From positions 1-49,843 of the forward strand of contig NZ_JALEGT010000040.1 in assembly GCF_022763305.1 (NCBI RefSeq): DNA of 49,843 bases, written 5' to 3'. Below are positions 228 through 30,098 of this stretch, piece after piece. A program made the position numbers and the translations under genes. Source of the stretch: Marivita sp. Lineage in GTDB: Bacteria; Pseudomonadota; Alphaproteobacteria; Rhodobacterales; Rhodobacteraceae. The notes under the pieces are model-generated. The model was not told the origin of the DNA. It made no database searches and worked only from the letters and a program-made list of their open reading frames with translations. Numbering within the stretch: the first letter of the stretch is position 1; every line of letters starts with the position of its first letter.

Positions 228-983
228 TCAGATTGCGAGGTATTCCGCGCGCAGCTGGCTGTTTTCCAGAACTTCGGCCGCCGACCCGTCGAACACGATA
301 GACCCCGTGTCGAGGATGATGGCCCGGTCGGCCAGTTGCAGGGCGCGCACGGCATTCTGTTCCACAAGGATGGTCGTCATCCCCTGTTCCTTGATCACTC
401 GCAGGGTCTTTTCGATCTCGTCCACGATCACCGGCGCCAGACCTTCGTAGGGTTCGTCCAGCAGAAGCACCTTGATGTCCCGCGCCAGCGCACGGGCAAT
501 CGACAGCATCTGCTGTTCGCCGCCCGACAGGGTCACGCCTTCCTGGTTGCGACGTTCGCCAAGACGGGGGAACAGGTCGTACAGGCGTTCGATCGACCAG
601 CCGATGGGCGGGGCGATCTGAGCCAGTTGCAGGTTTTCCTCGACCGTGAGGCCGGGAATGATGCGGCGGTCTTCAGGGACAAGGCCCAAACCCACCGATG
701 CCGCCTCATAAGAGGTCATCTTGTGCAGCGGCTGGTGGTCCAGCCAGATCTCGCCGTGGTTCACCTGCGGGCTGTCCATCCGCGCGATGGAGCGCAGCGT
801 TGTCGTCTTGCCGGCCCCGTTCCGCCCGAGAAGGGCGAGAATCTCGCCTTCGTGCACGTTGAACGAGATCCCCTGCACGATGTAGCTCTCGCCGTAATAG
901 GAATGCATGTCCCAGACCGACAGAAAGGCGGGTGCCGTTTCGGCCTGGTTGGCGTTCTTCGAAAAATCTGGTCTGACGTTCAT
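228..983 (-). CDS. livF: Branched-chain-type ABC transporter ATPase (LivF family)
   Basis: This is a 251-residue cytoplasmic ATPase that powers a LivHM-type permease. The Walker A motif GRNGAGKT is at about residues 53-60, the signature LSGGEQQ at 152-158 and Walker B LLLDEP at 173-178. I chose the ATG at 983 (MNVRPDF) because the frame extends upstream only to a TTG with no clear ribosome site. It is the last gene of a five-gene transporter operon running right to left. The family transports branched-chain amino acids, urea, amides and other small polar solutes. With acs downstream and a short-chain-acyl-type regulator upstream, the solute here is probably not an amino acid (inference). Confidence 0.88.
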   Translation of the reverse strand: MNVRPDFSKNANQAETAPAFLSVWDMHSYYGESYIVQGISFNVHEGEILALLGRNGAGKTTTLRSIARMDSPQVNHGEIWLDHQPLHKMTSYEAASVGLGLVPEDRRIIPGLTVEENLQLAQIAPPIGWSIERLYDLFPRLGERRNQEGVTLSGGEQQMLSIARALARDIKVLLLDEPYEGLAPVIVDEIEKTLRVIKEQGMTTILVEQNAVRALQLADRAIILDTGSIVFDGSAAEVLENSQLRAEYLAI

Positions 984-1031
984 GTCTGTGTCCTCGCTGT
1001 GGGAGGGGCGGGCAGCGCCCGCCAAATGGGG

Positions 1032-1787
1032 TTACGCGGCTTCGCCGAGATAGGCTTCCTTGACCTTCGGATGGCCCTTGATGTTCTCGGGCGTGTCCTC
1101 GACCAGGGGCGTGCCCTGCGCCAGAACGGTGATCCGTTCGGCCAGAGAGAACACCACATGCATGTCATGCTCGATGATCGCGATGGTGATGTTGCGCTTT
1201 TCCTTGATCTCTTTGAGCAGGTCGATGGTGTTGTTGGTGTCGGCCCGCGCCATGCCCGCTGTCGGCTCGTCCAGCAGCAGAAGCTTGGGGTTCTGAACAA
1301 GGCACATCGCCATCTCGAGGCGGCGTTTGTCCCCGCGCGACATGGAGGCGGAATGCATGTTCCGCTTGTCGAGCATGTTCACCTCGTCCAGCATGTGTTC
1401 GGCCTGATCGCGCAGCTCGGCTTCGCTCATCACAGACCGGATGCCGTGCAGGGCGAAGGACCCATCCCGCTTGGCAAAGCAGGGGATGAGCATGTTTTCC
1501 ATCACCGTCAGATCGCCGAAGATCTCGGGGGTCTGGAACACGCGGGAAATGCCCATCTGGTTGATTTCGAACGGAGTCCGGCCCAACACGCTCTGCCCGT
1601 CGAACATGACCGATCCGGTGTCCGGGATCAGCTTGCCGACAAGGCAGTTGAGCAGAGTGGACTTGCCTGCGCCGTTCGGGCCGATGATGGCGTGGCAGGT
1701 GTTTTCCGCCACGCTGAGGTTGACCTTGCCCAGGGCCTGAAGGCCACCGAACCGCTTGTTGACGTCTTTGACTTCGAGAATACCCAT
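1032..1787 (-). CDS. livG: Branched-chain-type ABC transporter ATPase (LivG family)
   Basis: The product is the 251-residue partner ATPase of the LivF-like protein. Walker A GPNGAGKST is at residues 36-44 and Walker B LLLLDEP at about 169-175. The ABC signature reads MSRGDKRRLEM (149-159) rather than LSGGQ; a divergent signature is usual for LivG/UrtD proteins. The start ATG follows AGGAGACGGAC on the minus strand. The livM stop lies 12 bases upstream, so the two genes are surely co-transcribed. Substrate cannot be read from the ATPase. Confidence 0.88.
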   Translation of the reverse strand: MGILEVKDVNKRFGGLQALGKVNLSVAENTCHAIIGPNGAGKSTLLNCLVGKLIPDTGSVMFDGQSVLGRTPFEINQMGISRVFQTPEIFGDLTVMENMLIPCFAKRDGSFALHGIRSVMSEAELRDQAEHMLDEVNMLDKRNMHSASMSRGDKRRLEMAMCLVQNPKLLLLDEPTAGMARADTNNTIDLLKEIKEKRNITIAIIEHDMHVVFSLAERITVLAQGTPLVEDTPENIKGHPKVKEAYLGEAA

Positions 1788-1799
1788 CTGTCCGTCTCC

Positions 1800-2999
1800 T
1801 TATTCCGCAGGCTCGGTGGTTGCGTTCTTGGGCTGGGACGCCTTCTTGCGGCCGAACAGCCCGGCGAGTTTCTGGCCACCTTGAACGAGGCCACCCGGCA
1901 GGAAGATCACGACGAGCATGAACACGATGCCCAGCGTGAGGTGCCAGCCCTTGCCGATGAACGGATAAATCATCGTGACCACGAGGTCTTCAAGCCCATC
2001 GGGCAGGAAGGCGAACCAGGTGTGCAGGATGTCGGCGTTGATCTTGGAAATGATGTTTTCCATGTACTTGATCAGACCAGCCCCCAGGACCGGGCCAATG
2101 AGCGTGCCCACGCCCCCGAGGATGGTCATGAGAACCACTTCGCCCGACGCCGTCCAGAACATGCGTTCGGCACCGGCAAGCGGGTCCATCGAGGCCATCA
2201 GACCTCCGGCCAGACCGGCATACATGCCCGAGATCACGAAGGCCGCCAGCGTGTAGGGACGCGGGTTCAGGCCGGTGTAGTTCAGGCGCTGCTGGTTCGA
2301 CTTGATGGCCCGCAGCATCATCCCGAAAGGCGAACGGAAGATGCGGATCGACAGGTAGAACGCTGCCAGCATGATGATGGCGGCGAAGTAGTAGCCGACA
2401 TTGAAGGTGAACACCCAATTGCCCAGCACCAGCTCGGTGCTGTCGCGCATTTCCAGACCAAAGAAGCCCGGTACGGGAATGTTGCCTTCGGCCGTGGTGG
2501 AGCTGCCGAAGATGCGCGGGTCGTCCAGGGCCAGCTGAAGGCCCGTTTCGCCGCCGGTGATCGGCGTCAGAACCGAATAGGCCAGCGCAAAGGACATCTG
2601 CGCAAAGGCAAGTGTCAGGATCGAGAAGTAGATGCCCGACCGACGCAGGCTCACATAGCCGATGATCAGCGCGAAGATGCCTGCGGTGATGACCGCAAGG
2701 ATGATCGCCGGAAGCACGTTCATGCTGAGCAGCTTGAACATCCAGACGGCGGCGTAGGACCCCACTCCGAGGAAGGCGGCGTGACCGAAGCTGAGATAGC
2801 CGGTCAGGCCGAAGAGGATGTTGAAGCCGATGGCGAAGATCCCGAAGATCACGAAGCGCTGCATCAGGTCCGGATAGCCTGCGTTGAACTGCGCCATCGC
2901 CGAGCCTTCGGGGAAGGGGTTGAGCAGGAAGGGCGCGAAGGCCACCAGCACTGCCACGATCAGCAGGAGGGATGCGTCTTTTTTGTCCAGTCCGAACAT
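1800..2999 (-). CDS. livM: Branched-chain-type ABC transporter permease (LivM family)
   Basis: This 399-residue inner-membrane permease opens [19 protein letters not shown] and has about ten hydrophobic helices. LivM hallmarks include [20 protein letters not shown] and a late [20 protein letters not shown] segment. It pairs with the LivH-like permease encoded three bases upstream to form the solute channel. A periplasmic loop between the central helices (about residues 150-190, with [17 protein letters not shown]) is longer than in amino-acid LivM proteins. The C-terminus ends in a basic, alanine-rich cytoplasmic tail. Confidence 0.87.
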
Positions 3000-3002
3000 G
3001 GA

Positions 3003-4034
3003 TCAGTCCTCCATCACGCCCTTGCGACCCATCAGGCCACGCGGACGCGTCAACAGAATAATGATGGCGACAAGGTAGATGACCACCTGGTTGATGCCGG
3101 GAATGATGTCGATCACTTCGCGCATCGACGCAAAGCTTTCGAGGATGCCCAGCAGGAACCCGGCCAGAACGGCGCCGGGCAGGGAGCCCATGCCGCCGAC
3201 CACCACCACGACGAAGCTCAGGACAAGAAAGTCCATGCCCATGTGGTAGTTGGGCGAGTTGATCGGGGTATACATCACACCGGCCAGACCTGCGACCGCA
3301 GCAGCCAGACCGAACATGATGGTGAACCGTTTGTCGATGTTGATGCCCAGCAGGCCCACGGTTTCACGGTCTGCCATACCGGCACGGACGACCATCCCGA
3401 AGGTGGTGAACTGCAGGAAGGCGAAGACGGCACCGATGATGATGGCGGCGAAGGCAAAGTATACAAGGCGCCAGTATGGGTAGATGATCTGGCCGGCCTC
3501 GAACCCGATCAGCGCACCGAAATCGAACGATCCGACAAAGGCCTCGGGGGCCGGTGTCGGGATCGGGTTGGCCCCATAGTAGTACTTGATGATTTCCTGA
3601 AGCACGATCGCCAAGCCGAAGGTCACGAGGATCTGGTCGGCATGCGGGCGCTTGTAGAAGTGCTTGATCAGGCCACGTTCCATGATCACGCCGATCAGGA
3701 TCATCACCGGGATGGCGAAGAAGATCGACAGCGGAACGGCCCAGTCGATGATCGCATCACCGGTTGTCTGACCGAACACGTCGTACACATACGGCACCTC
3801 GACCTTGAGCGGATTGCCCAGAAAGTCGGTGCGTGTCTCGTCGATGACGGTATGGCTGAGTGTCAGCAGCTTGCTGAGGGTCACGGCGCAGAAGGCACCG
3901 ATCATGAACAGCGCGCCGTGCGCGAAGTTCACAACGCCCAGCGTGCCGAAGATGAGTGTCAGGCCCAGCGCGATCAGCGCATAGGCCGAGCCCTTGTCGA
4001 GCCCGTTGAGAATTTGCAGGATTATGGCGTCCAT
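3003..4034 (-). CDS. livH: Branched-chain-type ABC transporter permease (LivH family)
   Basis: This 343-residue permease opens MDAIILQILNGLDKGSAYAL and contains the LivH motif GLTLIFGTLGVVNFAHGALFM near residues 24-44. It also has VVVVGGMGSLPGAVLAGFLLG near the end. It is first of the membrane genes and sits three bases before livM. A 108-base spacer holding two stem-loops separates it from the binding-protein gene upstream. The extra periplasmic segment near residues 60-95 (DETRTDFLGNPLKVEVPYVYD) is seen in roseobacter transporters of this subtype, not in E. coli LivH; that comparison is from memory. Confidence 0.87.
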   Translation of the reverse strand: MDAIILQILNGLDKGSAYALIALGLTLIFGTLGVVNFAHGALFMIGAFCAVTLSKLLTLSHTVIDETRTDFLGNPLKVEVPYVYDVFGQTTGDAIIDWAVPLSIFFAIPVMILIGVIMERGLIKHFYKRPHADQILVTFGLAIVLQEIIKYYYGANPIPTPAPEAFVGSFDFGALIGFEAGQIIYPYWRLVYFAFAAIIIGAVFAFLQFTTFGMVVRAGMADRETVGLLGINIDKRFTIMFGLAAAVAGLAGVMYTPINSPNYHMGMDFLVLSFVVVVVGGMGSLPGAVLAGFLLGILESFASMREVIDIIPGINQVVIYLVAIIILLTRPRGLMGRKGVMED

Positions 4035-4073
4035 TGCCCCACCCTTTGCGGTCAGAAGTGTGGAAGTACAGAC

Positions 4074-4124
4074 AGCCCGTCACGCAACGGGCTGGAGAAG
4101 GGATGAGGCGGGCCCTTGCGGCCC
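4074..4124 (-). other. Two stem-loops between binding-protein gene and livH
   Basis: Two perfect inverted repeats lie in the 108-base spacer: AGCCCGT (4074-4080) with ACGGGCT (4087-4093), loop 6; and GGGCC (4110-4114) with GGCCC (4120-4124), loop 5. Neither has a U-tract, so mRNA stabilisation or processing seems likelier than full termination. This would favour expression of the binding protein over the permeases. Confidence 0.55.
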
Positions 4125-4142
4125 ACCTCGAAGAACAAGGGC

Positions 4143-5486
4143 TTATGCGCCGTTGTTGCAGGTCCCCAGCGCACCACCGGCGAACTGCGGGTGATCCGGA
4201 GCATATGTGACCTGATCGACGGGGGTGACTTCCACGACTTCGAGAAGGTCGAACTCGGAGGTCGGGTTTTCTTTCCCGCGCACAACCAGAACGTCCTTGA
4301 AGCACTGGTGGTCTTCGGCACGGTAGAGGGTCGGACCGTTGCCCAAACCATCGAACTCGAACCCTTCGAGCGCTTCTGCCACGGCGCAGGGCGCGAACGA
4401 GCCAGCCCGTTCCACGGCATCTGCGTAGAGCATCATCTGGCAGTACACGGTGTGCGCCGCCTGCGACGGCGGGAACCCGTACTTGGTGCCGAAGGACTGG
4501 ACGAACGCCTTGGAGCCGTCATCCTGCAGCGACCAGTGCCAGTTCGTGGAGCCGAAGATGCCCTTCACGTTTGCGCCGGCACCCTTGGCCATCAGGCGCG
4601 AGTAGAGCGGAACGACGATTTCGAAGTTCTTGCCGTTGACGACACGGTCACGCAGGCCGAACTGCACCGCGTTGGTCAGCGAGTTCACCATGTTGCCGCC
4701 GTAGTGGTTCAGAACCAGAACGTCTGCATCGGACTGCAGAACCGGCGTGATGTAGGACGAGAAGTCGGTCTGCGTCAGCGGTGTCAGAACGGTGCCGACG
4801 GTTTCCCAGCCCATCGCCTCGGTCGAGGTGCGGACGGCTTCTTCGGTGGTGTAACCCCAGTTGTAGTCTGCGGTCAGGTGATAGGCCTTGCGGTCTGTGC
4901 CGTAGTTGGCGGCCAGCACCGGAGCGAGGGCTGCACCGGACATGTACGAGTTGAAGAAGTGACGGAAGCCGTTGGCCCGCTTGTCCTTGCCCGTGGTGTC
5001 GTTGGAGTGGGTCAGACCCGCCATGAAGATGACGCCTGCTTCCTGGCAGAGTGCCTGCACGGCCACGGCCACGCCCGAGGACGAGCCGCCTGTGATCATG
5101 ATGGCGCCGTCTTTTTCGATCATCGACTTGGCCGATGCGCGCGCGGCGTCGGATTTCGTCTGGGTGTCGCCGGTGACGTACTCGACCTTCTTGCCGAGGA
5201 TGCCGTTGCCCTGAAGCGCCTTCGACGAGAAGGTGTTCATCATGCCGCCATCGCCTTCACCGTTCAGGTGTTCGACAGCAAGCTCGTAGGCGCGCAGCTG
5301 ATCGGCGCCTTCGTCTGCGTAAGGGCCGGACTGGGGGACGTTGAACCCCAGAGTAACGGTTGAACCCGTCGGTGCGTTCGTAAAGCCGCTTTCCTGTGCG
5401 CGCAGATAGGTGGGCAGAACAAGACCTGCGCCTGCGACAGCACCTGTCTTGAGCACGCCGCGACGTGTCAGGTTGCCTTTGGACAT
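4143..5486 (-). CDS. Periplasmic binding protein of LivK/urea-amide type ABC transporter
   Basis: The 447-residue product begins MSKGNLTRRGVLKTGAVAGAG, a twin-arginine (Tat) signal with TRRGVLK at 7-13 and likely cleavage near residue 30. The mature part carries the Peripla_BP_6 fold pattern: VTLGFNVPQSGPYADEGADQ, then a GGSSSGVAVAVQALCQEAGV segment. It is longer than LivK (about 370). Tat export is unusual for LivK-type proteins but common in roseobacters. The ribosome site GGGAGGATTAT precedes the ATG. The gene is first in the operon and carries the promoter region at 5542-5589. The ligand is unknown; linkage to acs suggests a short-chain carboxylate or a precursor (inference). Confidence 0.85.
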   Translation of the reverse strand: MSKGNLTRRGVLKTGAVAGAGLVLPTYLRAQESGFTNAPTGSTVTLGFNVPQSGPYADEGADQLRAYELAVEHLNGEGDGGMMNTFSSKALQGNGILGKKVEYVTGDTQTKSDAARASAKSMIEKDGAIMITGGSSSGVAVAVQALCQEAGVIFMAGLTHSNDTTGKDKRANGFRHFFNSYMSGAALAPVLAANYGTDRKAYHLTADYNWGYTTEEAVRTSTEAMGWETVGTVLTPLTQTDFSSYITPVLQSDADVLVLNHYGGNMVNSLTNAVQFGLRDRVVNGKNFEIVVPLYSRLMAKGAGANVKGIFGSTNWHWSLQDDGSKAFVQSFGTKYGFPPSQAAHTVYCQMMLYADAVERAGSFAPCAVAEALEGFEFDGLGNGPTLYRAEDHQCFKDVLVVRGKENPTSEFDLLEVVEVTPVDQVTYAPDHPQFAGGALGTCNNGA

Positions 5487-5589: not shown

Positions 5590-5639
5590 TAAGCGCTTTG
5601 CGTTAAACGTTTTTTCTGTCAAAAAATGAACAGTGCATT

Positions 5640-5668
5640 GCAGAAATATGTAAATTTCTTTTTTCTGC
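5640..5668. promoter_or_regulatory. Nested inverted repeats before the ScfR-like gene
   Basis: GCAGAAA (5640-5646) is inverted as TTTCTGC (5662-5668). Inside it is a second, nested inverted repeat GAAAT-6-ATTTC (5643-5658). The element ends 37 bases before the chosen ATG of the transcription factor and is AT-rich in a GC-rich genome. It is a candidate autoregulatory operator. Confidence 0.4.
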
Positions 5669-5705: not shown

Positions 5706-7022
5706 ATGCCCCGCGACACTCTGACAGGCAGCCGGATCCGGGAGCGCCGCGTGATGGCGGGGCTCAAGCAGTCCGAACTGGCCAAACGTGCGGATATTTC
5801 GCCTTCCTACCTCAATCTGATCGAGCACAATCGTCGAAGAATCGGCGGGAAGTTGCTGGTCGATATCGCCCATGCTCTCGGGGTGGAACCGGCGTTGCTG
5901 ACCGAAGGGGCGGAGACTACGCTTCTTGCCACCCTGCGCGAAGCGGCGAGCGCTGCCGACATGCAGGAAGCGGAATTCGTGCGAGTCGAGGAATTTGCCG
6001 GCCGCTTTCCCGGCTGGGCTGCCCTTCTGGCCGAAACCCAGAACAAGGTCGAAACGCTCCAGCGCAGCGTCGAGGCCCTGACCGACCGCCTGACCCATGA
6101 TCCGCATCTTGCGGCATCCCTGCACGAGATGCTGTCCACCGTGACAGCAATCCGCTCGGCTGCGTCGATCCTCGCCGAACCGGGCGATATCGAACCGGAA
6201 TGGCAGCGGCGCTTCAATCGCAACATCTATGAGGACAGCGCACGCCTCGCCGACACCAGCCGCAGTCTTGCACAATATCTTGAAGAGGCGGACTCGGAAG
6301 CCTCCGAGACCAATGCGCCGCAGGACGAATTGGATGGCGTGTTTCAGAAGTCGGGCTTTCACCTCCCGGCCCTTGAGATCGCGTCGGCCCGTGTCGAAGA
6401 CGTTGCCGACGAGTTGGGGCAGGGACTGTCTCATGCGGCGCGCTGGCTTCTTCTTCGTGTTCTGGCGCGCTATCGCACCGATGCCGAGCGGATGCCTCTG
6501 GCCGGCTGCGCAGATGTTGTTGCCGCCTCGGGCAGCGATCCGTTTGCCCTGTCCGCACGCTTCGGCACCGACCTTGCGAGCGCGATGCGACGGCTTGCGC
6601 ATCTGCCCGAAGAGATCCTGCCCGATCCCGTGGGCCTCGCCATCTGCGATGGGTCCGGTGTGACGACCTTTCGCAAGCCGCTTCCCGAATTTCCGCTGCC
6701 GCGTCTTGGGGCGGGATGTGCGTTCTGGCCGCTCTACCGCGCGCTGGCGCGGCCGATGATGGTGCATGTCGAGGTGATGGAACAATCCGCACGCGCTGCG
6801 GCGCGTCATCGCGCCTATGCCATCTCTCAGCCCACAGGGCCTGCCCGCCCGGGCGAAGACGTGCTCTTCGAAAGCCACATGCTGATCGTTCCCGAACCCA
6901 AACGGGACGGGTCCGAAAAGGTCCGCGAGGTGGGCCTCACCTGCCGGATTTGCCCGCACCCGTCCTGCGAGGCGCGACGTGAACCATCGATCATGGTGGC
7001 CTCGGCCCCGCGGAAGCTTTGA
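5706..7022 (+). CDS. ScfR-like HTH transcription factor with a DHp-like central segment
   Basis: The 438-residue protein has an XRE-type HTH at about residues 7-62 (LKQSELAKRADISPSYLNLI) followed by a coiled region. Residues about 136-192 contain HEMLSTVTAIR and EDSARL, resembling a histidine-kinase DHp hairpin. The C-terminal region ends with a Cys cluster CRICPHPSCEARREPS (about 413-428), as in ScfR/PccR/RamB regulators of short-chain acyl metabolism. No HEXXH peptidase motif is seen. I chose ATG 5706 (MPRDTLTGSRIRERR) over the upstream GTG at 5670 because it matches how the family begins. It is divergent from the liv-acs operon and leads the signalling cluster, so it probably controls both. 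Confidence 0.82.
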   Translation: MPRDTLTGSRIRERRVMAGLKQSELAKRADISPSYLNLIEHNRRRIGGKLLVDIAHALGVEPALLTEGAETTLLATLREAASAADMQEAEFVRVEEFAGRFPGWAALLAETQNKVETLQRSVEALTDRLTHDPHLAASLHEMLSTVTAIRSAASILAEPGDIEPEWQRRFNRNIYEDSARLADTSRSLAQYLEEADSEASETNAPQDELDGVFQKSGFHLPALEIASARVEDVADELGQGLSHAARWLLLRVLARYRTDAERMPLAGCADVVAASGSDPFALSARFGTDLASAMRRLAHLPEEILPDPVGLAICDGSGVTTFRKPLPEFPLPRLGAGCAFWPLYRALARPMMVHVEVMEQSARAAARHRAYAISQPTGPARPGEDVLFESHMLIVPEPKRDGSEKVREVGLTCRICPHPSCEARREPSIMVASAPRKL

Positions 7023-7114
7023 CACATTGCACGCAACTCGTAATAGTTTATCCAAGCTGGCCTAAAATAACGGCAAAAGCCGATCGGCCAGATGCGGCAC
7101 GGGGGAGGGCACGC

Positions 7115-7483
7115 ATGTCCGGACAGGTTCTGTTGATTGAAGACGAACCCAATATCATCGAAGCGATCAGCTTCATCCTGTCTCGGGACGGATGGACGGT
7201 CAAAACACACTCGAACGGCGCCGATGCGGTCGAGATGGTCAAGGCCCGCAAGCCGGATGTCCTGATCCTCGACGTGATGCTGCCGGGCAAAAGCGGGTAT
7301 GACATCCTGCGCGAGTTGCGCGAAGACCCCGAGATCAACGGTCTGCCCGTCCTGATGCTCACCGCGCGCGGCCAAAGCAAGGACCGCGAGATTGCAGAGC
7401 GTGCGGGCTGTGATGCCTTCATGACCAAACCTTTCTCGAATGCGGACGTGCTCGAAACCGTGAGAGCGCTTGCCGCAAAATGA
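7115..7483 (+). CDS. Single-domain response regulator (CheY-like receiver)
   Basis: The 122-residue protein is a receiver domain and nothing else. The acidic pocket is ED at residues 9-11, the phospho-acceptor is D53 in LILDVMLPG, the switch threonine is T83 and the conserved lysine is K105 in FMTKPF. The start is ATG 7115 after GGGGGAGGG; an upstream TTG frame extension is not convincing. The stop overlaps the next gene by ATGA. With no DNA-binding domain it must act through another protein. Candidates in the cluster are the ScfR-like factor with a DHp-like segment and the FliM-like protein. The sensor kinase two genes downstream is the likely phosphodonor. Confidence 0.92.
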   Translation: MSGQVLLIEDEPNIIEAISFILSRDGWTVKTHSNGADAVEMVKARKPDVLILDVMLPGKSGYDILRELREDPEINGLPVLMLTARGQSKDREIAERAGCDAFMTKPFSNADVLETVRALAAK

Positions 7484-7761
7484 GCGACCGTGCCGACAGG
7501 CCCGGTGCGCCAACCGTCTTTCATGAACGGCGTACCTATCGTCGCCGCCGTGTCATGGACGCGGCGCGGGTTGCCCCGATCCTTGCGCTGATCCTGTGGA
7601 CGATCCCGCTGATCTGGCCGCAATCGGGTGAAGGCACCGTCAGCAGCGCCACCGCCCTCATCTACATCTTTCTTGTCTGGGCGGGGATCATCTTGCTGAC
7701 AGGGGCCCTGTCCCATCTTCTGGCCGACGAGGTGGACGAGCCGCCGGATCCGGAGCCATGA
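7480..7761 (+). CDS. Small two-helix membrane protein of unknown function
   Basis: The 93-residue protein has a charged N-terminus (FHERRTYRRRRVMDAARV), two hydrophobic helices at about residues 30-46 and 60-80, and an acidic tail (DEVDEPPDPEP). It overlaps the response regulator upstream and the sensor kinase downstream by ATGA at both ends, so it is translationally coupled to both. I do not recognise a family. Small membrane proteins are often co-encoded with SLC5-type symporters, so an accessory subunit of the sensor is possible (inference). Confidence 0.75.
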   Translation: MSDRADRPGAPTVFHERRTYRRRRVMDAARVAPILALILWTIPLIWPQSGEGTVSSATALIYIFLVWAGIILLTGALSHLLADEVDEPPDPEP

Positions 7762-10445
7762 GCACGCTCAATCTGCTGGTCGCGGTTTGTACGGCCTATG
7801 TGTGCTTTCTGTTCCTTGTGGCCTTCGTCGCTGATCGCCTTGCCATGCAGGGCAAGAAAGCCTGGCTGAGATCGCCGCTTATCTACACATTGTCCCTGTC
7901 AATCTATTGCACCGCTTGGACATTCTACGGGGCAGTCGGTTCGGCTGCTCGCAACGGGTTTGAATACCTGACCATCTATCTGGGTCCGACCATTGTGATG
8001 GTCAGCTGGTGGTGGCTTCTGCGCAAGCTGATCCGCATCGGGCGGACCCAGAAGATCACCTCAATCGCCGACCTGATCTCGTCGCGCTATGGCAAGTCCA
8101 GCCTGTTGGCCGCCGGTGTCACGATCCTCGCGGTGATCGGCACAACACCCTATATCGCGCTGCAGCTTCAGTCCGTAACCCTGTCCTTCTCGGTCTTCGC
8201 GGCGCAATCGGACGGACTGGCCGGTCAGGATCAGGCCCGCGTGGCCTTGTGGCTTTCGCTGGGACTGGCCCTTTTTACCGTCCTATTCGGCACCCGCAAT
8301 CTCGACGCCAAAGAGCGGCATGACGGGGTCGTGATGGCCATCGCCGTCGAGGCAGTGGTCAAGCTGGTCGCCCTTCTGTCGGTGGGCATCTTCGTGGTCT
8401 GGGGTGTCTCGGGTGGCCTGACGGATGCACTGAACCAGATCGACGCATCCGAATTCGGCGAATGGCACACGGATCGAAGCCGCTGGGCCGGGTTGATCTT
8501 CCTGTCTGCGGCCGCCTTTCTCTGCCTGCCGCGCACATTCCAGGTGCTCGTGGTGGAAAATGACGACGAGAGCCATCTGCGCACCGCAAGCTGGGCTTTC
8601 CCGCTGTATCTCTGTCTCATCAGCCTTTTTGTCGTTCCCATCGCTGTTGTCGGGCTCGACATCATGCCGGAAGGATCGAACCCGGATCTCTTTGTTCTGA
8701 CAGTCCCTCTGGCGCTGGGGGAAGACGGATTGGCGATGCTCTCCTTTCTCGGCGGGTTCAGCTCGGCCACGTCGATGGTGATCGTGGCTGCGATTGCCTT
8801 GTCCACGATGGTGTCCAACCACATCGTCATGCCGATCTGGCTGCAACTGCGTCCCAGCGGCGCCAGTGTCTCGGGCGATGTGCGGGCTGCTGTTCTGACG
8901 GCGCGGCGCATTTCGATCGTCGGGGTCGTGATGCTGGGCTATCTCTATTTCCGTCTCTCCAGCGGTGGCGAAGCGCTGGCGTCGATTGGCCTTGTGGCCT
9001 TCTGCGGTCTGGCGCAGGTCTTGCCGGCGATGCTGGGGGGCATGTTCTGGCGCGGCGCAACGCGCATGGGGGCCTTTGCCGGGCTGACCGCCGGATTCGC
9101 CATCTGGCTTTACACGCTGTATCTGCCGAGCTTTGGCGTGGGCACGATCCTGCCGGTGTCTATCGTCGAAAATGGCCTCTTCGGCATGGCGTGGCTCAAA
9201 CCCGATGCGCTTTTCGGGATCTCCGGGATGGACCAGCTCATGCATGCCCTGCTCTGGAGCATGCTTCTGAACGTTGTCGCTTTTGTGGGGGTGTCGCTTG
9301 TGACGTTCCCGTCCCCGCTCGAACGGCTGCAGGCGGCGCAGTTCGTCAACATCTTCGAACACTCCACCAATGCACGCAGCTGGTCGGGCGGTACGGCGCA
9401 AACCGAGGATCTGATGGTCATGGCGCAACGCATTCTGGGAGCGGGCGAAGCGCAGGCGCTGTTCCTGCGCCATGCCCGTCGGCAGGGGGCACGCGGCAAT
9501 CTGCCCGCACCGACGCCGGATTTCCTCGAAGCGCTTGAACGCGAACTGGGCAGTTCGGTGGGTGCCGCAACCGCGCATGCCATGGTGGGCCAGATCACCG
9601 GCGGTATGGCGATCTCTGTCGAGGACCTGATGGCTGTGGCGGACGAAACCGCGCAGATGCTTGAATATTCCGCGCGGCTCAAGGAACAGTCCGAGGAACT
9701 CAGCCGCACCGCGCTTGAATTGCGCAACGCGAACCAGAAGCTCACACGGCTGTCGATCCAGAAAGACGCCTTCCTCAGCCAGATCAGCCACGAATTGCGC
9801 ACGCCGATGACGTCGATCCGCGCCTTTTCGGAAATCCTGCGTGACACGGACCAGATGAGTCCGGACGAACAGTCGCGTTATGCGTCCATCATCCATGACG
9901 AGGCGCAGCGGCTGACGCGGCTGCTGGACGACCTTCTGGATCTGAGCGTTGTCGAGAACGGGCAGGTCAACCTCAACCTGCGCGACGGCACTCTTCGGGA
10001 CGCGCTGGACCGTGCGGTCTCAGCTGCCGCGATCGGGGATGACGGGGTACAGCTCATGATCGAGCGGGACACGTCGCGGGAAGACATCGTTCTGCACACC
10101 GATCTGGACCGCCTGAGCCAAGTGTTCATCAACCTGATCGCCAATGCACGCAAGTATTGCGATTCCAAGACCCCGCGTCTCGTGATCCGCGTCATGAAGG
10201 AAACCGACCGCGTGGTCATTGATTTTCAGGACAACGGGTCTGGCATCGCGCCCGACGCGGTCGACATGATCTTCGAGAAATTCGCGCGGGTCAGTGATCA
10301 GAAGGCAGGTGGCGCCGGGTTGGGCCTTGCCATCTGTCGCCAGGTGATGACGCGCCTGGGAGGCTCGGTCGACTACATCCCGGCCTTGCGCGGGGCGAAT
10401 TTCCGTGTGGTTCTGCCCTATCGCACCGCGATGGCGGCGCAATGA
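7758..10445 (+). CDS. SLC5-transporter/histidine-kinase sensor (CrbS/CbrA-like)
   Basis: The 895-residue membrane sensor has an N-terminal sodium/solute symporter (SLC5) module of about 13 helices (residues 1-520). A STAC-like linker (about 535-625) and a coiled coil (635-665) follow, then a histidine-kinase core. The H-box is SHELRTPMTSI with phospho-acceptor H678, the N-box NLIANARKY (N796) and the G1 box DNGSGIA (D825), followed by a glycine-rich G2 box GGAGLGLA. There is no receiver of its own. Known relatives are CrbS, which controls acs in Vibrio and Pseudomonas, and CbrA, a histidine sensor. The acs gene in the same cluster favours a CrbS-type acetate response. All kinase boxes are intact. 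Confidence 0.88.
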   Translation: MSTLNLLVAVCTAYVCFLFLVAFVADRLAMQGKKAWLRSPLIYTLSLSIYCTAWTFYGAVGSAARNGFEYLTIYLGPTIVMVSWWWLLRKLIRIGRTQKITSIADLISSRYGKSSLLAAGVTILAVIGTTPYIALQLQSVTLSFSVFAAQSDGLAGQDQARVALWLSLGLALFTVLFGTRNLDAKERHDGVVMAIAVEAVVKLVALLSVGIFVVWGVSGGLTDALNQIDASEFGEWHTDRSRWAGLIFLSAAAFLCLPRTFQVLVVENDDESHLRTASWAFPLYLCLISLFVVPIAVVGLDIMPEGSNPDLFVLTVPLALGEDGLAMLSFLGGFSSATSMVIVAAIALSTMVSNHIVMPIWLQLRPSGASVSGDVRAAVLTARRISIVGVVMLGYLYFRLSSGGEALASIGLVAFCGLAQVLPAMLGGMFWRGATRMGAFAGLTAGFAIWLYTLYLPSFGVGTILPVSIVENGLFGMAWLKPDALFGISGMDQLMHALLWSMLLNVVAFVGVSLVTFPSPLERLQAAQFVNIFEHSTNARSWSGGTAQTEDLMVMAQRILGAGEAQALFLRHARRQGARGNLPAPTPDFLEALERELGSSVGAATAHAMVGQITGGMAISVEDLMAVADETAQMLEYSARLKEQSEELSRTALELRNANQKLTRLSIQKDAFLSQISHELRTPMTSIRAFSEILRDTDQMSPDEQSRYASIIHDEAQRLTRLLDDLLDLSVVENGQVNLNLRDGTLRDALDRAVSAAAIGDDGVQLMIERDTSREDIVLHTDLDRLSQVFINLIANARKYCDSKTPRLVIRVMKETDRVVIDFQDNGSGIAPDAVDMIFEKFARVSDQKAGGAGLGLAICRQVMTRLGGSVDYIPALRGANFRVVLPYRTAMAAQ

Positions 10446-28691: not shown

Positions 28692-30098
28692 TCAGCTTTC
28701 GTAACGGGTCTGACCGCGGCGATAGGCGTCTACCGGCAAGGTTACGTGCAGGGGCTGATGCGCGCGTTGCGGACAGGCGGTGCGCGGGCAGACATGACAG
28801 CTGGTCCCGATCTGGGCAAACAGGGTCCGGTCCTCCATGTTGAAGCGCTGCGCGTACCCGATCCGATGCGCCTGGTCGATGTCACAGCCGATGGCAACCA
28901 CAAGTCGGCGATCCTGATAGCGCTGGCCGACATTCGGCCGGTCCGATGTCCGCGAGACAGTGAAGAACCGCCCGCCATCGGGCATTTCGACGAATTGCGG
29001 AAGCAGTTGGCCGGGAACCTGAAAGGCACCGTGGATGTCCCAGACCGGACAGGCACCGCCTTCTTCGGCCAGCGTGATCGTGGTGGCATTGAACCGTTTC
29101 GACACGTTGCCAGCCCGGTCGACACGCAGGAAAAAGAACGGGATGCCGCGCTGCCCATCGCGCTGCAGCGTCGTCAGCCGCTGACACACCATTTCGAAAC
29201 TGACACCGAAGCCCGAGATAATCCGGTCGATATCGTACCGCGTGGCCTCGGCGATTGTCAGGAATTCGGTGTAGGGCATGAGAAGCGACGCGGCGAAATA
29301 ATTCGTCAGTTCCACGGTCAGCCGCGCGCGGCCCGCATCGGACGTTATGCCAGAGGCTGCGACATAGCTCTGCACGGTGTCACGGGCTTCGAGCAGGCCG
29401 ATCACATGGGCGAGCTGAAACACCCGATTGGGATGATCCAGCGCCTCGGACAGGTGCACGATGCCGTCCGTTTCTCGGAAATGGCGCAGTGCACCGGGCA
29501 TGTCCGAGAGTTTCTGCACGGTGCAGGTGACAGTGTGTTCAAGTCGCAGGTGACGCTTGAGCAAGGCATACATGTCGTCATGCGACCCACCCAGCCTTGC
29601 GCGCAGGTCTTCGGCCTGTCGTTCCAATGGGTCGAAATGATTCTCGTGTGCGCGGAACACGTCGTGGATCGCGGTCTCGGGTGTCTTGAACCGCAGGTCG
29701 CTGCCGCCAGTCTGCCCGGCGAGCCTGCGGAACTGGTCGGCCATCGACCGGTGTGCCTGATGCAGGTGCAGAAACCGTTCGACCAATGTCGGGGCATGAT
29801 CGAGCGCCGCGCGCAATTCCGTCAGGTCAGGTGGGTCATCGCCAAAGATCGGATCGCGCACCGCAGCCCGCAGGTCGGCAAGACGGGTTGCTTCGGTATT
29901 GGTGACAAGGCTGCGCATGTCCACGCCATAGGCTTCGGTCAGCGCGACAAGAACCTGCACCGACAGGCTGCGCTGGTTGTTTTCCAACAGGTTGACATAG
30001 GCGGCGGAAATGCCCAGCCGCTGGGCCATTTCGGCCTGCGTGTGCTTCATCTGGCGGCGCAACTGCCGCAATTGTGGGCCAACAAAGGTCTTGCTCAT
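28692..30098 (-). CDS. ScfR/PccR-type short-chain acyl-CoA regulator
   Basis: This 468-residue XRE-family regulator has an HTH at residues 8-62 (KHTQAEMAQRLGISAAYVNL). A central IrrE/DUF955-like region has lost the zinc motif (LAHVIGLLE where HEXXH would be; ELTNYFAASLLMP keeps the second helix). The DUF2083-type C-terminus carries CHVCPRTACPQRA. Family members such as PccR in Rhodobacter and RamB in Corynebacterium sense short-chain acyl-CoAs and control carboxylate metabolism. It is divergent from tctCBA and a downstream acyl-CoA synthetase gene, its likely targets. Compared with the 5706 homologue, it lacks the DHp-like segment. Confidence 0.88.
   Translation of the reverse strand: MSKTFVGPQLRQLRRQMKHTQAEMAQRLGISAAYVNLLENNQRSLSVQVLVALTEAYGVDMRSLVTNTEATRLADLRAAVRDPIFGDDPPDLTELRAALDHAPTLVERFLHLHQAHRSMADQFRRLAGQTGGSDLRFKTPETAIHDVFRAHENHFDPLERQAEDLRARLGGSHDDMYALLKRHLRLEHTVTCTVQKLSDMPGALRHFRETDGIVHLSEALDHPNRVFQLAHVIGLLEARDTVQSYVAASGITSDAGRARLTVELTNYFAASLLMPYTEFLTIAEATRYDIDRIISGFGVSFEMVCQRLTTLQRDGQRGIPFFFLRVDRAGNVSKRFNATTITLAEEGGACPVWDIHGAFQVPGQLLPQFVEMPDGGRFFTVSRTSDRPNVGQRYQDRRLVVAIGCDIDQAHRIGYAQRFNMEDRTLFAQIGTSCHVCPRTACPQRAHQPLHVTLPVDAYRRGQTRYES

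Follow-up and report, generated by a model that had tools for sequence, protein, structure and literature searches.

How can a receiver without any output domain act on gene expression? This question is raised by an operon found in a 49,843-nt stretch of DNA from Marivita sp. (contig NZ_JALEGT010000040.1; the whole stretch is called here the window, and coordinates refer to it). The operon encodes, on the forward strand, a ScfR-type transcription factor (TF) of 438 amino acids (aa) (P0001, 5706-7022), a bare receiver of 122 aa (P0002, 7115-7483), a small membrane protein of 93 aa (P0003, 7480-7761) and a sensor kinase of 895 aa (P0004, 7758-10445). Between its helix-turn-helix (HTH) domain and its C-terminal core, the TF carries a hairpin that resembles the dimerization and histidine phosphotransfer (DHp) domain of kinases. 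We propose, with a probability of roughly 0.6, that the operon is a two-component system acting through a DNA-binding protein that is separate from the receiver and bears a DHp domain related to that of the kinase. The homology of the hairpin and the membership of the TF in the system are both supported. Judged from sequence comparison, no kinase matches a profile of TF hairpins as well as the cognate one does, and where a receiver gene is linked, the TF keeps both the phospho-acceptor His and the residues that face the receiver.

The first-pass annotation of this operon had aligned TF residues ~136-192 by eye with the DHp hairpin of the kinase and had proposed docking of the bare receiver at this site; both letters and coordinates could be verified. 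The TF indeed retains the His-Glu pair (H140-E141 in the 438-aa open reading frame (ORF), with the H140 codon at 6123-6125), followed by EDSARL (176-181), to be compared with HELRTPMTSIR (678-688) and DEAQRL (714) in the kinase. The spacing between the His and the second motif, described as similar, is 36 in both proteins. The receiver was also correctly described, its 122 aa containing no output domain. The DHp-like segment of the TF (aa 102-201) is encoded at 6009-6308 (+) and the HisKA/DHp domain of the kinase at 9762-9959 (+), with H678 at 9789-9791.

Similarity to HisKA/DHp domains in profile searches had been named beforehand as a check, and it was found with several tools. The NCBIfam CreC kinase profile matches P0001 at aa 112-188 with an E-value of 1.5e-5, a score well short of the cut-off set for this model. 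A phmmer search of the ORFs of 100 loci with the kinase P0004 as query matched TF homologues at the hairpin, the best being those of loci L131 (E=2e-13, aa 105-201), L123 (1e-11) and L130 (3e-11). The hairpin of L123 reads STHELRTFLTSIRSFSEIL, and some homologues from other families are more kinase-like than the window copy. We then used two alignments, A1 with 71 TFs and A2 with 53 TF hairpins, the latter being the source of a hairpin profile; both left out five His-less TFs then known. At E≤1, Pfam HisKA matched 34 of the 53 hairpins, 4.4e-11 being the lowest value, and at E≤0.1 it matched 20 of the 71 whole TFs. The segment of P0001 itself reached only E=0.1, so Pfam would not have flagged the hairpin from this single sequence. 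When the hairpin profile was compared with PDB sequences, HK853 came first (E=8.6e-6), the profile His being aligned to the HK853 His. Nine of the first ten rows were named kinases and one an 'ATP-binding protein', and 20 rows in all reached E≤10, three of them clearly other proteins. Two additional full-hairpin matches, in genomes G407 and G511, were discarded as kinases, since their similarity to P0004 extends beyond the DHp domain. Altogether, TF residues ~102-201 are homologous to kinase DHp domains, which confirms the initial observation and makes it stronger than was thought.

A hairpin structure had likewise been named as a check, and AlphaFold predicts an entry helix (102-131) followed by helices alpha1 (133-157) and alpha2 (164-201). 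With the 71-row alignment, the monomer model of the TF has a confidence score (pLDDT) of 90.3; in blocks of 10 residues, the hairpin scores 85-96, except for 76 (121-130) and 66 (191-200). Modelled alone, also as a monomer, it again gives an entry helix and two long helices (pLDDT 83). Foldseek ranks kinase structures first for the hairpin, including complexes of HK853. The receiver matches RR468, the partner of HK853, across residues 1-119 of both, and the top fold match of the TF is PrpR of Mycobacterium tuberculosis.

Which kinase is closest to the hairpin? Throughout the genome of the window, the hairpin profile gives 121.5 bits for the TF, 60.8 bits (E=4.4e-16) for the DHp domain of the cognate kinase, although built from TFs only, and 24.1 bits for the next kinase; Pfam HisKA ranks a different kinase first. 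In a survey of 240 genomes of the class, 29 have the TF, and the best match of the profile outside the TF is a frame of ~890-1040 aa in 28 of them, the cognate kinase being assigned here by frame length, confirmed at retrieved loci, among at most 22 candidates scored per genome. The sole exception is a genome 68% complete. In a DHp tree of 80 hand-picked sequences, the TF hairpins form one clade (33/33, support 100), and their mean identity is 0.29 to cognate kinases and 0.18 to other kinases. On the other hand, the cognate kinases are equally near other kinases (0.30), and the best clade joining them to the TFs includes 8 other kinases. From these comparisons, the TF hairpin is likely to derive from the DHp domain of the cognate kinase, even if this is not proven.

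The linkage of the TF, receiver and kinase genes is old. Of 292 genomes sampled in the order, 283 have a P0001 homologue (E≤1e-20), and all belong to a single family, which named relatives identify as Rhodobacteraceae; this number counts whole-TF homologues, the hairpin itself having been read at retrieved loci only. At the level of the class, 46 of 385 genomes match the TF at E≤1e-12; five of these belong to the family, and some of the others hold plain ScfRs. Hairpin TFs were found in 20 families besides Rhodobacteraceae. In 17 of these, receiver and kinase adjoin the TF, with f8 and f64 having them on the opposite strand; one family has the receiver alone beside it, and two (f41 and f117) have neither. 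Once duplicates over residues 60-260 had been removed, 179 distinct TFs remained, 174 with the hairpin and five ordinary ScfRs. With a linkage limit of 6 kb, a receiver gene is linked to 157 of the 179, and receiver plus kinase to 153. Seventy-one of 80 named loci passed the automatic linkage test; the nine that failed are explained by an upstream start call of the receiver (five), a receiver ~3 kb off, a kinase on the other strand, and the presence of neither gene (two, L329 and L351). The receiver is consistently bare, since at most 34 aa follow the receiver match in 160 linked homologues and fewer than 10 aa in 148; one of the 157 linked receivers (L377) is part of a full-length regulator. 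Six of the nine family genomes without the TF are also without the kinase (E≤1e-60).

The first-pass annotation had named homologues with the segment and no linked receiver gene as evidence that would refute its hypothesis. Such homologues do occur, since 17 of the 174 hairpin TFs have no receiver gene within the limit; the 15 of them checked by genome (L329 and L351 were left out) all come from genomes that encode the kinase and a receiver match elsewhere, as did all 24 genomes searched in this way. In genome G290, two TF copies coexist (L182 and L270), one linked to receiver and kinase and one alone. None of the 6 viral contigs matching the pattern encodes a relative.

All 157 distinct TFs that have a receiver gene within the limit carry a His at the phospho-acceptor position, these counts representing related sequences and not independent events. 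Of the 22 TFs without such a gene, ten have His and seven another residue (F in four, Q in two, Y in one); the remaining five are the ordinary ScfRs, which have no hairpin. In A1, five columns of the HTH domain are invariant, as are two glycines and, within the hairpin, H140, I155, F170 and L181. We considered whether the loss of His reflects the loss of the system and rejected this idea, kinase and receiver matches being still encoded in the genomes of the His-less TFs. The TFs with F in family f41 retain the hairpin and could represent a natural docking-only or decoupled variant.

We then turned to the face of helix 1 that would meet the receiver, in 161 linked rows (153 distinct TFs). This face was defined as positions 0, +4, +8, +11 and +15 (H140, S144, A148, S151 and I155 in P0001), which we take to be the HK853/RR468 specificity positions, known from structure titles and placed by the HK853 numbering and by the HK853-hairpin alignment. 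Its mean entropy is 0.55 bits vs 1.40 elsewhere; only 1.5% of all 5-subsets are as low, or 4.9% of 4-subsets when the His is omitted, and register 0 has the lowest entropy of ten registers. E+1, P+5 and T+4 are positions that have roles in kinases. These kinases never depart from E+1 and P+5, which are relaxed in the TFs, and S/T occupies +4 in 156 of 161 TF rows. On the other side, D10, D53 and K105 of the receiver are found in 161 of 161 rows. As far as conservation tells, this is the pattern of a DHp domain that still meets a receiver and no longer serves an ATPase domain.

On this basis, the following mechanism can be proposed. The symporter-type kinase would phosphorylate the bare receiver at D53, and the phosphorylated receiver would dock onto the DHp bundle of a TF dimer as it would onto the kinase. 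The phosphoryl group could next be handed to H140, as from Spo0F to Spo0B. Docking or phosphorylation of H140 would alter DNA binding at the operator of the TF itself and at a divergent ABC (ATP-binding cassette) transporter operon, and this signal would be combined with a putative ScfR-type sensing of CoA esters in the C-terminal core. Docking is quite probable, and we are more certain of it than of phosphotransfer to H140, to which we would give somewhat less than an even chance. Slightly more tentative still is the complete scheme, in which the TF would be the terminal histidine of a His-Asp-His relay, the receiver carrying the phosphoryl group from the DHp domain of the kinase to a daughter DHp domain in a metabolite-sensing (ScfR) regulator.

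Several observations weigh against our proposal. Seven TFs from three families retain the hairpin without the His, which implies at least three losses. In the four cases with F (L258, L259, L261 and L262, all of family f41), a receiver-kinase pair lies ~7.5 kb away and divergent, so that only the 6-kb limit makes them count as unlinked. The invariance of H140 in A1 is partly due to selection, because the His-less TFs then known were excluded. Foldseek gives the hairpin only weak E-values, none better than 0.07, and other helical proteins appear from rank 6 on. Kinase and bare receiver also persist without the TF in three family genomes and five outside the family, indicating that the TF is not the sole possible output. 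Finally, 7 of the top 50 pairs in TF-receiver mutual information join the hairpin to receiver helix 1 (0.8 expected), with core and HTH columns scoring alike; this co-variation was not counted as evidence, because a kinase-receiver control missed the canonical pairs and phylogeny confounds the signal.

Could docking alone be sufficient? The TF DHp domain would then read the phosphorylated receiver as DivL reads DivK~P, its His being kept for the interface with no phosphotransfer. DivL binds DivK~P with a Tyr at the His site, and the Y550H substitution left binding unchanged (PMC4211667). The seven TFs with F, Q or Y fit this idea, and by inspection L126 and L133 retain small or identical residues at +4, +8 and +11 and an I at +15. 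However, a His in all 157 linked TFs exceeds what docking needs on the DivL precedent; the retention of H140 with every nearby receiver points beyond docking and favors transfer, and we regard docking without transfer as rather unlikely. One could also imagine a flow in the reverse direction, in which the TF DHp domain would drain or dephosphorylate the phosphorylated receiver and the kinase pathway would in this way be tuned by the CoA-ester state of the TF. The S/T at +4 stands at the place of the HisKA phosphatase residue, and the TF core has the ScfR fold, both of which suit such a role. Nevertheless, the bare receiver would be left without evident output in these operons and a further target would be needed, which makes this flow improbable. 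The hairpin might finally be nothing but a dimerization module of kinase descent, its His and linkage being historical. DHp domains do dimerize, and such a module would agree with the 17 hairpin TFs that have no receiver within the limit, 7 of which are without His. Yet it is the His and the receiver face that are conserved, and not the dimer core alone, and the linkage to a bare receiver extends to 17 families besides Rhodobacteraceae; we hold this to be very improbable.

The genomes without a TF match provide a further element. In four of those with kinase and bare receiver (L370-L373), a protein of ~700 aa is encoded between the two (L370:9016-11151; L371:8936-11011; L372:3251-5338; L373:3582-5780); no such gene lies between receiver and kinase in L369, the fifth genome of this kind. 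This protein combines a part resembling PAS, a stretch resembling HisKA in which inspection shows no His, and a DEDDh-type (RNase_T/DnaQ-type) exonuclease domain. Pfam HisKA matches two of the four (E 5e-4 and 8e-3) and the hairpin profile all four (E 1e-5 to 2e-3). It may be a pseudo-kinase-controlled nuclease. The presence of two different DHp-like proteins beside one type of receiver suggests, at the level of sequence, a general docking principle for DHp-like segments beside bare receivers.

As for the targets of the TF, TTTGTAAA boxes occur upstream of the TF gene in 90 of 160 regions, when 3.4 are expected from shuffles. The two TGTnAAA-like boxes of the window (5614-5624 and 5647-5654, +) are imperfect copies of TTTGTAAA and a possible autoregulatory operator. 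The boxes suggest a ScfR-like operator serving for autoregulation and for control of the divergent ABC operon. This Liv/Urt-like transporter operon (228-5486, -), the first gene of which encodes the substrate-binding protein (4143-5486, -), is syntenic across families, the substrate-binding gene being so in 22 of 26 loci outside the family and 106 of 134 others. Matches of the transporter to the urea ABC models of NCBIfam stay below the cut-offs. The divergent operon is a possible target of the TF. Beyond it, no acetate genes were recognized in 7 loci, where genes were judged from their sequence and no family search was made.

The other parts of the operon can be described briefly. P0001 begins with an HTH_3 domain (aa 11-64) and its C-terminal ScfRs domain (PF09856) scores 33.2 bits for a cut-off of 24; the two domains are found in 71 of 71 A1 members at E≤0.1. 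No HATPase_c domain was detected in P0001 at E≤1, nor among the 25 of 42 families listed for A1. Outside Rhodobacteraceae, TF homologues have 460-590 aa; within the family they are mostly shorter in the core (P0001 aa 205-438). For 27 of the 71 A1 members, the profile PF06114 (M78/IrrE-like domain) gives a match. From these two features, acyl-CoA sensing may have changed in the Rhodobacteraceae TFs. The receiver shows the residues D10, D53, T83 and K105 (Response_reg, E=5.5e-27). The gene of P0003, a protein whose membrane character was judged from its sequence, lies between receiver and kinase and is present in nearly all receiver-linked Rhodobacteraceae loci; none of the curated family profiles searched matched P0003 at its cut-off. 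The kinase comprises a symporter-type N-terminal part, HisKA and HATPase_c; homologue L370 exceeds the cut-off of the SSF profile and L371 falls short of it, while no SSF match was detected in P0004, L369 or L373. The window contains a second HTH stretch (29859-30089, -) related to P0001 aa 5-81, where the hairpin profile gives no match.

Bare receivers are common and their outputs often unknown. Here, the output of the receiver may be written in the operon, as the partner carries a copy of a surface that the receiver already knows. If this is true, two-component systems could gain outputs without fusion of a receiver to an effector, a DNA-binding protein would be phosphorylated on histidine by a receiver, and an outside signal and acyl-CoA would be integrated on one DNA-binding protein, which would define a new class of two-component output. 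The first-pass annotation was aware of no ScfR, PccR or RamB description with such a hairpin, and none was found in the accessible text of the open literature. The same holds for a DHp domain in a ScfR or another separate DNA-binding protein, the accessible parts of PMC10370305, PMC12632250, PMC4211667 and PMC6765138 included. One paper mentions a Paracoccus homologue beside a two-component system, and we infer that Pden_1785 of Paracoccus denitrificans is the counterpart of P0001.

Parallels can be drawn with several known systems. P0001 resembles the ScfR family (PrpR, RamB, PccR and MccR) by its HTH_3 and ScfRs domains and its PrpR-like fold, while no hairpin separates HTH from core in the five ordinary ScfRs (L135 and L137-L140). 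Four Cys of the TF (C338, C413, C416 and C421) are conserved in at least 90% of A1 rows and recall PrpR, a [4Fe4S] cluster protein in which such residues presumably bind the cluster. As in the pair DivL-DivK, a DHp-bearing partner may read a phosphorylated receiver, and the DivL structure 4q20 is among the PDB matches of the hairpin profile, at E=0.28 only. Spo0B and ChpT are DHp-type histidine phosphotransfer proteins that receive the phosphate from one receiver and deliver it to another; they have a degenerate catalytic and ATP-binding (CA) domain. The TF keeps the His on its DHp domain and is linked to a bare receiver, and we propose from its sequence that transfer could occur; in contrast to Spo0B and ChpT, its DHp domain is fused to a DNA-binding protein and followed by a ScfR core, with no CA domain found. 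DivL of Caulobacter has PAS and CA domains and a Tyr instead of the His (PMC4211667), whereas the TF keeps the His and has an HTH domain, no CA domain being found. The kinase, for its part, joins a symporter-type N-terminal half to a HisKA kinase, as in CrbS/CrbR, RpuS/RpuR and other SLC5-type kinases. In the CrbS/CrbR system, however, CrbR itself is reported to activate acs, while the present receiver is bare and DNA binding falls to a separate protein of the ScfR type.

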